Assembly (NCBI RefSeq): GCF_900113245.1
Contig: NZ_FOOQ01000002.1
Coordinates: 124,001 to 188,000 of the forward strand
Direction of reading: 5' to 3'
Source of the DNA: Halopelagius inordinatus
GTDB taxonomy: Archaea; Halobacteriota; Halobacteria; Halobacteriales; Haloferacaceae
Length of the DNA stretch: 64,000 nucleotides
Under the pieces are notes generated by a model, which worked only from the letters and a program-made list of their open reading frames with translations, was not told the origin of the DNA and ran no database searches. Below, one piece after another: positions 37,257 to 44,829 of this stretch. The number at the start of each line of letters is the position of its first letter. Positions within the stretch are counted from its first letter, which is position 1. The translations under genes and the position numbers were made by a program.

Positions 37257-38420
37257 TTACAACGCCGCCTCGAACGCCCGTTCGAGGTCCGTCTTCAGGT
37301 CGTCTACGTGTTCGACGCCGACGCTGACGCGGACGAGTCCGTCCGAGAGGCCCGCCGCGACCCGTTCCTCGCGGGGAATCGCGGCGTGGGTCATCGCCGC
37401 GGGCTGTTCGATGAGGCTCTCGACGCCGCCGAGACTCTCCGCGAGGGTGAACACGTCCGTCTCGGAGACGAGCGTGGACGCCTGTTCGAGCGTCCCGTCG
37501 AGTTCGAAAGAGAGCATGCCGCCGAAGTCGTCCATCTGCTTTCTCGCCACGTCGTGTTGCGGATGTGACTCCAGTCCGGGGTAGTAGACGGCGTCGACGG
37601 CGCCGTGGTCGTCCAACCACCGCGCCAGTTCGTCCGCGTTCTCGCAGTGGCGGTCCATCCGCACGGGGAGCGTTTTCGTCCCGCGGAGGACGAGAAAGCA
37701 GTCGAACGGCGAGGGCGTCGCGCCGACGGAGTTCTGATAGAAGCCGAGTCGCTCGTCCAACTCCTCGTCGTCCGTGACGAGCACACCGCCGACCACGTCC
37801 GAGTGGCCGCCGAGATACTTCGTCAGCGAGTGCGAGACGACGTCGGCGCCGTGGTCTAACGGTCGCTGGAGGTACGGCGTCGCGAACGTGTTGTCCACGG
37901 CACAGAGCGCATCGTGTTCGTGGGCGATGTCCGCGAGGGCCTCTATGTCGTTGACGCGCATCAGCGGGTTCGTCGGCGTCTCGACCCACAGCAGTTCGGT
38001 CTCCTCGCGCACGGCGTCTTCGACGGCGTCGTGGTCCGTGGTGTCGACGAAGTCGAACTCCACGTCGTAATCCTCGTACACCTGCGTGAAGATGCGGTGG
38101 GTCCCCCCGTAGACGTCGTCGCCGGTGACGACGTGGTCGCCCGATTCGAGCAGGTTCAACACGGTGTTGATAGAGGCCATCCCGGAGGCGAACGCGCGGC
38201 CGTACTCGCCGCCTTCGAGCGACGCGACGTTCGCTTCGAGGTCCGTCCGCGTCGGGTTGCCCGTCCGGGAGTACTCGTACCCGCGGTGGTCGCCGGGGCC
38301 GTCTTGGACGTACGTCGAGTTCGCGAAGATGGGCGACATCAGCGCGCCCGTCTCTTCGTCCGGCTCTTGGCCGGCGTGGATGGCGCGCGTCTCGATTCGC
38401 TCCTCGCTTTCGTCGGTCAT
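37257..38420 (-). CDS. Cystathionine gamma-synthase/lyase family PLP enzyme
   Basis: PLP-dependent enzyme of transsulfuration or methionine synthesis (387 aa). Motifs: [20 protein letters not shown] (start, about 9-28), [47 protein letters not shown] and the cofactor Lys in [17 protein letters not shown] (about 198-214). GGAATTTGG on the minus strand is centred about 29 nt before the ATG at 38420. Whether synthase, gamma-lyase or homocysteine synthase cannot be separated by sequence. The MetE pair 5 kb away may belong to the same pathway. Confidence 0.92.
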
Positions 38421-42710: not shown

Positions 42711-42736
42711 GCAGCGGCATTTCTAACGGTGTGACG

Positions 42737-43744
42737 ATGACAGAGTTCGTCGCGACGACGCCCGGGTTGTATCCCCTCCCCGACTGGGCGAAGTCAGACC
42801 TCTCGGACCTGAAAGGCCACCAGAAACACGACCTCATCTCCGGAGACGAGTCCGGCGACATCGTCGCCGCCTACGAGGAGGCGCGCGCGGAAGTCGTCGG
42901 CGACCAACTCGACGCCGGGTTAGACCGTATCGTCGAGGGGCAACTCCGCTGGGACGACATGCTCGCACACCCCCTCACCGTCCACGAGAACGTCGAGACG
43001 GGCGGCATCGTCCGATACTACGACAACAACAACTTCTACCGCGACCCGCAGGTCGTCGGCGAACTCACCTTCTCCGGCGACGTCGCAGAAGAACTGAACG
43101 CGGCCGCGGACCACCTCGACGGCGAACCGCTTCAGGGCGTCCTCCCGGGGCCGTACTCGCTTTCGGAACTCGCTTCGGACGAACACTACGGCGACGACGC
43201 GGACTTTCTCGACGCCGTCTCCGAGTTCCTCGCGGCCGAAGTCGACGCGTTCCCCGACCACGAGACGCTCTACCTTCTGGAACCCTCTCTCGTCACCGAC
43301 GCGCCCGACGACGACATCGCCGAACGCGTCCCCGACGCGATAGACGCCGTCGCCGACGCCACGGACGCCGACGTCGTCGTCCACACCTACTGGGAGGCGT
43401 TCGACGAGAAGACGTACGCCCACCTGATGGACGCGGACGTCGATGCCATCGGCTTCGACTTCGTCGAGGCCGACAGAGAACAGACGCTGTACAACATAAA
43501 CGAGTACGGGACGAAAGAGTCGATTTCGCTCGGCCTCGTCGACGGCCAGAACACGCTGGTCGAAGGCGCGGAGACGGTCCGCGAACGCGCCGAGTGGGTA
43601 CTCGACCAAGTGCAGATGTCGACGTTCGACACGACGTATCTGACGACGAACACCGAACCGTTCTACCTGCCCGTGAACAAGCACAAAGAGAAACTCGCCG
43701 CCCTCGCAGAGGCGGCCGACGTCGAGACGGAGGTGGAGGCATAA
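42737..43744 (+). CDS. MetE-like protein lacking the zinc ligands
   Basis: A TIM-barrel of the cobalamin-independent methionine synthase (UROD/MetE_C) group, 335 aa. It has MetE-like segments (VLPGPYSLSELASDEHYGDD, about 135-154; LYLLEPSLVTDAP, about 178-190). At the zinc positions it reads His216-Thr-Tyr218 and NTEPFYLP where the partner has HxC and DCGVKLLP. It is therefore probably not catalytic alone. It may bind the folate substrate or correspond to the inactive N-terminal half of bacterial MetE. The ATG at 43744 of the partner overlaps its TAA. A GTG at 42731 could be the true start. Confidence 0.87.
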   Translation: MTEFVATTPGLYPLPDWAKSDLSDLKGHQKHDLISGDESGDIVAAYEEARAEVVGDQLDAGLDRIVEGQLRWDDMLAHPLTVHENVETGGIVRYYDNNNFYRDPQVVGELTFSGDVAEELNAAADHLDGEPLQGVLPGPYSLSELASDEHYGDDADFLDAVSEFLAAEVDAFPDHETLYLLEPSLVTDAPDDDIAERVPDAIDAVADATDADVVVHTYWEAFDEKTYAHLMDADVDAIGFDFVEADREQTLYNINEYGTKESISLGLVDGQNTLVEGAETVRERAEWVLDQVQMSTFDTTYLTTNTEPFYLPVNKHKEKLAALAEAADVETEVEA

Positions 43745-44829
43745 TGGCACGACACGCGGACAACCGCGAGCAGTTCCGACCGAACGGCCACGACAACGAC
43801 AACTTCCTCCTGACCACGGTGGTCGGGAGTTACCCGAAGCCGAAGTGGCTGAACCGTTCGAAGGAACTCGCGGACGACGAGTCCTCGAAGTTCGACGACG
43901 ACGACTTAGCGGAGGCGTACGACGACGCGGCGCGCGTCATCACGCACGAACACGAGAACTCCGGCCTCGACACCGTCGTAGACGGCGAGATGCGCCGCGA
44001 GGAGATGGTCGAGTACTTCGCCCACCGCATCCCCGGCTACGAGTTCAACGGCCCGGTGAAGGTGTGGGGACACAACTACTTCGACAAACCCTCCGTCGCG
44101 AGCGAAGTCGAGTACGACGAACCGTGGTTGGTCGACGAGTTCGAGTTCACCTCCGACGTGGCCGAAAAGCCCGTCAAGGTACCCATCACCGGCCCGTACA
44201 CCCTCGCTCGCTGGTCGTTCAACGAGGCGTACGACACCGAGGAGGAACTCGCCTACGACCTCGCGGACCTCGTGAACACGGAAGTCGAGAAACTCGTCGA
44301 GGCGGGCGCGCGGTACGTCCAGATAGACGAACCCGCACTCGCGACGACGCCCGACGACCACGCCATCGTCGGCGAGTGTCTCGAACGCATCGTCGACGGC
44401 ATCGACGACGAGGTGCGCATCGGCCTGCACGTCTGTTACGGCGATTACTCGCGCATCTACCCCGAACTCAACGACTACCCCATCGACGAGTTCGACGTGG
44501 AACTCTGTAACGGCGGGTACGAACAGATAGACGTGTTCACAGACCCCGAGTTCGAACCCGACCTCGCACTCGGCGTCGTGGACGTCCACACCGCCGAGGT
44601 GGAGTCCGTCGAGGAGATAAAAGAGAACATCAAGGAGGGGCTGAAGGTGGTCCCGCCGGAGAAACTCACCGTCTCGCCCGACTGCGGCGTCAAACTCCTC
44701 CCCCGCGAAGTCGCCTACCGAAAGATGGAGAACATGGTCACGGCCGCCCGCGAAGTCGAGGCGGAACTCGACGACGGCGAGATAGACGTCGCCGGTCTGC
44801 GTCGCAGTCCGGCGGGCAGTCAGGCGTAG
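43744..44829 (+). CDS. Methionine synthase, cobalamin-independent, catalytic half (MetE C-terminal type)
   Basis: Transfers a methyl group to homocysteine to make methionine, using a zinc thiolate. The 361-aa barrel has the start LLTTVVGSYPKPKWL (about 22-36), VQIDEPALAT (about 192-201), and all zinc ligands: His229-Val-Cys231 (GLHVCYGD), Glu253 (FDVELCNGG) and Cys314 (SPDCGVKLLP). It overlaps the preceding paralogue by one base (TAATG), so a two-subunit enzyme made by coupled translation is likely. The methyl donor may be a pterin rather than polyglutamyl folate; not resolvable here. Confidence 0.93.
   Translation: MARHADNREQFRPNGHDNDNFLLTTVVGSYPKPKWLNRSKELADDESSKFDDDDLAEAYDDAARVITHEHENSGLDTVVDGEMRREEMVEYFAHRIPGYEFNGPVKVWGHNYFDKPSVASEVEYDEPWLVDEFEFTSDVAEKPVKVPITGPYTLARWSFNEAYDTEEELAYDLADLVNTEVEKLVEAGARYVQIDEPALATTPDDHAIVGECLERIVDGIDDEVRIGLHVCYGDYSRIYPELNDYPIDEFDVELCNGGYEQIDVFTDPEFEPDLALGVVDVHTAEVESVEEIKENIKEGLKVVPPEKLTVSPDCGVKLLPREVAYRKMENMVTAAREVEAELDDGEIDVAGLRRSPAGSQA

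Follow-up and report, generated by a model that had tools for sequence, protein, structure and literature searches.

The window, a stretch of 64,000 nucleotides from the genome of Halopelagius inordinatus (G000; 3.53 Mb in 14 contigs, 99.9% complete), contains two adjacent forward-strand genes for methionine synthase proteins of the MetE type. The first (42737–43744) encodes a 335-amino-acid N-subunit, predicted to be a zinc-less (β/α)8 barrel, and ends with a TAA stop codon at 43742–43744. The second (43744–44829, stop codon at 44827–44829) encodes a catalytic C-subunit of 361 amino acids in a different reading frame. As the first-pass annotation of this DNA had stated, the two open frames overlap by a single base: at the junction, GCATAATGGC, the final A of TAA doubles as the A of the second ATG, creating a TAATG stop/start overlap (43742–43746, forward strand) through which translation of the two genes is presumably coupled. 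An alternative GTG start for the first frame lies six bases 5′ of its ATG, at 42731. Profile searches revealed no further PF01717 or PF08267 match in the genome beyond the pair and no match to PF02574 (MetH/BHMT type), to which neither protein is related at E ≤ 1; a second methionine synthase was thus rejected as far as these three profiles reach. Approximately 4.3 kb upstream of the pair, on the opposite strand, the window also encodes a cystathionine gamma-synthase (37260–38420, minus strand; PRK07811, above cut-off).

The arrangement is common in haloarchaea. We detected the N-subunit gene in 58 of the 60 genomes of the family, the present one included, with three of them matched in pieces. 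Besides the window, 44 pairs were extracted from these 58 genomes, using start codons chosen by closeness to the homologous start; 13 genomes were left out, among them G033, which was counted in a second set. All 44 pairs are adjacent on the same strand, with an overlap of four bases in 31, of one base in 12 and a one-base gap in the remaining case. In other genomes, 27 of 27 additional pairs likewise consist of neighbors on one strand, with match ends 3–96 bases apart, bringing the total to 71 of 71 further haloarchaeal pairs, and the same adjacency holds for four of four pairs from outside the order.

The C-subunit matches the Pfam family Meth_synt_2 (PF01717) with 187 bits (E = 7.1e-55), scores 546.5 bits with the NCBIfam methionine synthase model PRK04326 (cut-off 406) and aligns with the C-terminal half of T. 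maritima MetE at E = 4e-42. Both window subunits were aligned to E. coli MetE as reference, and equivalences between E. coli and T. maritima residues derive from our own alignment together with motifs quoted in PMC539065. The complete set of zinc ligands that had been proposed for the second protein is present at exactly the positions named, with His229 and Cys231 encoded at 44428–44436, Glu253 at 44500–44502 and Cys314 at 44683–44685. The homocysteine residues are present as S29, E82 and D195. For residue numbers of E. coli MetE beyond those covered by Price et al., the roles used here are the ones we take them to have. The four ligands are retained in 44 of 44 other haloarchaeal C-subunits, in four of four split forms from outside the order and in two of two fused MetE proteins, and the zinc residues are conserved throughout all 65 aligned rows, including the lone relatives and core enzymes described below. 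Three further positions concern the methyl donor. Trp157 (44212–44214) corresponds to the pterin-stacking tryptophan (E. coli W561, T. maritima W539), His282 (44587–44589) to the candidate proton donor (E. coli H694, T. maritima H672), and Glu87 (44002–44004) takes the place of the aspartate in the DMV motif (E. coli D489). At these places the window, 48 of 48 other split C-subunits and both fused MetE proteins have tryptophan, histidine and aspartate or glutamate, respectively, the last being glutamate in all 44 haloarchaeal and all four other split C-subunits.

The N-subunit is less conserved than its partner, with a mean column identity of 70% versus 82% in the catalytic subunit. Nevertheless, 89 columns are invariant across 45 N-subunit sequences, which argues that the protein is under strong constraint. 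It scores higher with Meth_synt_1 (PF08267; 55.6 bits, E = 7.7e-15, against a cut-off of 27 bits in the Pfam copy used) than with PF01717 (48.9 bits), and the E-values of both subunits with their best families put these matches well outside chance. Consistent with the earlier description of a half without zinc, the protein lacks cysteine altogether: the HxC place reads H216-T217-Y218 and the DCG place N305-T306-E307, with Tyr218 (43388–43390) in place of the zinc cysteine of HxC and Thr306 in place of the last cysteine. Tyr218 is found in 43 of the 45 sequences and His216 in 30. According to Pejchal and Ludwig (PMC539065), the N-terminal barrel of MetE arose from the C-terminal one and lost its zinc site, and the cysteine became Tyr232 in T. 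maritima; Tyr218 is the equivalent of this residue and thus a known feature of MetE.

Basic residues of the N-terminal barrel are also preserved. The segment from Lys19 to Lys26 (codons 42791–42814) aligns with E. coli MetE Arg17 and Lys20, and the motif R93-YYDNNNFYR-D103 (43013–43045) begins with Arg93, the counterpart of E. coli Lys117, which we equate with T. maritima Lys104, a residue in contact with the pterin O4. Arg93 occurs in all 45 N-subunits, N98 and Y101 in 44 of 44 others, and Lys19 and Lys26, like Arg93, each in all 44 other haloarchaeal N-subunits. Outside the order, arginine occupies the places of E. coli residues 17 and 117 in all four N-subunits aligned, and lysine occurs at the place of residue 20 in none of them. 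In genus g9, N-subunits are longer (359 and 370 amino acids; L038:3089–4165 and L039:3200–4309, both minus strand) and carry an insertion near window residue 125.

An AlphaFold2 monomer model of the N-subunit, built from the 45 sequences, reached a mean pLDDT of 87.8 and a pTM of 0.89 and looks like a (β/α)8 barrel. The closest Foldseek matches to the model were MetE structures and 3rpd, a protein classed as MesD by Price et al. (PMC7857596), with E-values from 1.5e-13. VIA-align returned Z-scores of 28.4–31.7 over 309–316 residues for the best 23 matches, MetE barrels ranging from 28.4 to 30.1. Since the N- and C-terminal barrels of MetE were level in this comparison, fold alone leaves the assignment to one half undecided, and we relied on sequence motifs instead. 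Lower-ranked matches included barrels of the URO-D type and a methyltransferase from M. mazei, as expected within this superfamily. The least certain part of the model is the stretch 93–101, where pLDDT falls below 50 although most positions are invariant; one reading of the model is that this loop would need the partner or folate to become ordered.

Taken as a class, the pair is a split MetE, i.e., a cobalamin-independent methionine synthase encoded in two genes, and no new kind of enzyme. The suggestion that a MetE had been divided into a zinc-less N-terminal and a catalytic C-terminal half thus agrees with a form already described by Price, Deutschbauer and Arkin in 2021 (PMC7857596), according to whom most halophilic archaea have no methionine synthase other than split MetE. 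They report it in 107 genomes; in 106 of these, 73 of which belong to Halobacteria, no other methionine synthase is known. For the homologues from P. furiosus, these authors cite the formation of a complex, and their predicted donor is methyl-THF or another methyl-pterin (PMC7857596). With the P. furiosus prototype PF1268/PF1269 the window genes share adjacency, an N-part that matches PF08267 best, a C-part of the PF01717 family and lengths below 400 amino acids for both products; by its PF08267 score above cut-off and above that of PF01717, and with 335 residues against an upper limit of 400, the N-part falls within the published definition. There are no differences of substance from other archaeal split MetE proteins, and the window holds one more haloarchaeal copy. 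Our search for literature on split MetE in archaea yielded nothing besides the 2021 study. With the class in print, the pair itself adds little; its interest is that most haloarchaea have no known methionine synthase other than split MetE and that we infer the donor of this enzyme and the roles of its subunits.

Neighboring classes differ in recognizable ways. Fused MetE, as in E. coli, T. maritima and Haloquadratum, likewise has two barrels, the zinc set, the homocysteine residues, the pterin tryptophan, the DIH-type histidine and a tyrosine for cysteine in the N-terminal barrel, but is a single chain where the window has two; the best score with the fused-MetE model TIGR01371 is 175.6 bits, against a cut-off of 929.95. 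Core synthases of the MesA type share the catalytic barrel with its zinc and homocysteine residues but function without an N partner. Eight such enzymes in our alignment, MesA-like by Gln484 and Cys643 and from genomes without an N-subunit match (read from their non-membership among the 44 N-matched genomes), have glutamine at the place of E. coli Glu484 and lack the tryptophan and the histidine, while the aspartate is kept in all eight. The window C-subunit instead has Glu82 at the Glu484 place and an N partner gene. It also has Cys231 at the place of Cys643, where most, albeit not all, MesC proteins carry histidine (PMC7857596). Fused and split forms can occur side by side: genome G005 contains an open frame of 768 amino acids for a full-length fused MetE (L040, 2620–4923 of the reverse complement) besides its split pair, and the same combination is known from Haloquadratum walsbyi (Price et al., PMC7857596).

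We are highly confident of an overall reading in which the pair is a haloarchaeal split MetE with a catalytic C-subunit, an N-subunit completing the methyl-THF cleft and methyl-THF as methyl donor. By homology, the C-subunit would bind homocysteine as a zinc thiolate through H229, C231, E253 and C314. The zinc-less N-barrel, of the same ancestry, probably faces its catalytic partner and contributes the remaining part of the methyl-THF cleft. Homocysteine would receive its methyl group directly from methyl-THF, the proton being donated in all likelihood by His282. Such a scheme presupposes that the two proteins form a complex, that methyl-THF serves as donor and that the pair is catalytically active, each of which we infer. 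An obligate heterodimer, as had been proposed from the sequence, is plausible by analogy. The folate pocket cannot, however, equal that of bacterial MetE, since several of its residues are replaced. The pterin-binding Glu583 of T. maritima corresponds to Thr201 of the C-subunit, the tail-binding Arg493 and Arg496 to Asn111 and Asp114, and His111 to Phe100 of the N-subunit.

The idea of an unusual methyl donor, also raised in the first-pass annotation, is not supported by the data. The pterin tryptophan, the candidate proton-donor histidine and the basic residues of the N-barrel are all kept, and the genome encodes a homologue of the Mer-type reductase (TIGR03555) at E = 3.1e-84. This residue conservation and the co-occurrence of a Mer-type reductase make methyl-THF the most likely donor as judged from sequence, in line with the prediction of Price et al. 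It has been proposed that haloarchaea use THF and that their Mer homologue HVO_1937 is a methylene-THF reductase (Pfeiffer and Dyall-Smith, PMC8305020), and methyl-THF for the window pair would probably come from such an enzyme encoded elsewhere in the genome. MetF was considered as the source and set aside for this organism, which has the Mer homologue and no PF02219 match.

An informative contrast is provided by six haloarchaeal genomes (G015, G038, G067, G118, G254 and G264), each with one protein of the catalytic type that is 41–48% identical to the window C-subunit. These lone proteins are encoded at L036:8724–9749 and L037:8323–9348 (both minus strand) and, as open frames, at L103:7622–8704 (minus), L104:7337–8419 (plus), L105:5760–6794 (plus) and L106:7505–8539 (minus). 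An N-subunit was not found in G015, G038, G067 and G118, which are approximately 99% complete, nor in G254 and G264, which are 76–78% complete and for which the absence is based on a single match and on loci of 15–16 kb rather than on an N-profile search. All six proteins retain the zinc and homocysteine residues shared with the window C-subunit, yet phenylalanine replaces the tryptophan, glutamine the histidine and glycine the aspartate or glutamate. With PRK04326, the enzymes at L036 and L105 score 331 and 312 bits, respectively, below the cut-off passed by the window protein.

In a phylogenetic tree, the six lone enzymes form one clade (100/100) that groups with the haloarchaeal split C-subunits (100/96), and split C-subunits from outside the order lie beyond the branch joining the two. 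The lone form is therefore probably derived from the split form, with the proviso that the tree is unrooted, has several long branches and recovers the haloarchaeal split C-subunits as one group only at 93/86. A scan of named genomes for the lone enzyme kept 80 loci, the first two of which are the haloarchaeal enzymes of G254 and G264. The other 78, from bacteria and one Thermoplasmata archaeon, are at most 34% identical, and nine of them were included in the tree without assignment to a group.

Genomes with the lone enzyme also differ in their methyl-transfer genes. RACo (PF14574) is present in all six; among the 146 genomes of the order it occurs in exactly four, G067, G118, G254 and G264, and in none of the other 142, including that of the window. 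DUF1638 (PF07796) adjoins RACo in G015, G038, G254 and G264, a corrinoid protein (PF02310 and PF02607) is encoded nearby in G015, G254 and G264, MttB-like genes in G015, G118, G254 and G264, and MtrH-like genes in G015 and G118. G254 has a compact run of approximately 6 kb (L105:4239–10325), in which a divergent MttB-like gene is followed by the lone enzyme and then by RACo, DUF1638 and the corrinoid protein. Linkage to RACo is not tight in G067 and G118, where ATP synthase genes adjoin the lone gene and more than 60 kb separate it from RACo.

Mer-type reductases show the opposite distribution. At E ≤ 1e-60, a threshold of our own choosing, 139 of the 142 genomes in the order that lack the lone enzyme contain a match, versus none of the four with it (Fisher p = 1.9e-6, with the 146 genomes treated as independent of kinship), the larger group being defined by absence of the lone enzyme and not throughout by an N-subunit search. 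The searches for the lone enzyme, RACo and Mer each covered 146 genomes of the order at the same settings, and we take the sample to be identical because sizes and listed genomes agree. As none of the Mer matches in the order reaches the 348.7 bits that NCBIfam sets as cut-off, we regard them as homologues and not as certified members. The three genomes without a strong match are G249 (81% complete), G272 (a partial match) and G173, of which G249 and G272 have the pair. Among lone-enzyme genomes, G067 and G118 gave no match, G254 and G264 matched at 1.6e-45 and 3.5e-18, and G015 and G038, in a separate search, at 4.4e-44 and 7.9e-51, in the range of second copies in the split genomes G008 (4.6e-53) and G006 (2.3e-50). 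MetF-type matches (PF02219) occur in five of 13 split genomes and in all six lone-enzyme genomes; hence, a missing Mer there does not mean missing methyl-THF, which these organisms may make or oxidize via a MetF-type route.

These patterns bear on a different account of the window pair, in which a methyl-corrinoid protein methylates the C-subunit, as is thought for MesA, MesB and MesC, and the N-subunit acts as a docking platform. That a lone haloarchaeal relative lies beside corrinoid-protein and RACo genes speaks for this account. Against it, every one of the 48 other split C-subunits keeps the pterin tryptophan and the histidine, both of which have been lost from all 14 relatives in which no N partner was detected, and RACo is confined to genomes with the lone enzyme, making a corrinoid donor for the pair very unlikely. 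Pair genomes keep the folate residues and nearly all encode a Mer-type reductase, while lone-enzyme genomes have lost both and contain corrinoid-reactivation genes, a contrast that provides a clear test of the donor inference.

For the lone enzymes themselves, residues and gene context point to a corrinoid donor, which suggests that the six haloarchaea have swapped to a corrinoid-fed core enzyme. On balance, we favor a donor switch within haloarchaea, in which split MetE was replaced in some lineages by a lone and possibly transferred descendant of its own C-subunit that dispenses with the pterin tryptophan, the proton-donor histidine and the N-subunit and would receive its methyl group from a corrinoid protein belonging to a system that demethylates betaine or methylamine (MttB-like, corrinoid protein, MtrH-like, RACo, DUF1638). 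If this is true, the folate form represented by the window pair is ancestral in haloarchaea, and comparison of the two forms makes the role of the N-subunit testable. In marine bacteria, glycine betaine demethylation has been tied to methionine synthesis through a corrinoid protein (PMC12478193). Judging by gene order, HTSR_1805 of Halodesulfurarchaeum, listed as methionine synthase in a methyl-THF scheme (PMC5437934), probably belongs to the lone homologues. We found no description of a corrinoid-linked lone MetE in haloarchaea in the literature searched, in which subscription papers were mostly not included; this result is newer than the pair, and its novelty concerns the lone relatives and not the window. 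As a separate observation, MtrH-like and short MetF-like genes lie side by side near RACo in G118 (L233:12492–14333) and G015 (L235:2055–3922) and resemble a set for glycine betaine demethylation.

Least probable of all is that the N-subunit serves a different pathway by itself or is a functionless paralogue in decay: its lack of cysteine, its retention of only a poorly conserved histidine from the zinc set and the presence of an N-relative in G173 without a detected catalytic subunit would fit, but the 89 invariant columns indicate constraint, and a catalytic gene adjoins the N-gene on the same strand in 72 of 73 further N-bearing haloarchaeal loci (44 of 44 and 28 of 29). The exception is G173, in which we found neither a PF01717 match nor a strong Mer match. 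Its N-relative (L240:4052–4972, minus strand; 43% identical) lacks the K19/K26 region and the RYYDNNNFY motif, as if these mattered only with a partner, which fits the view that those residues serve the pair.
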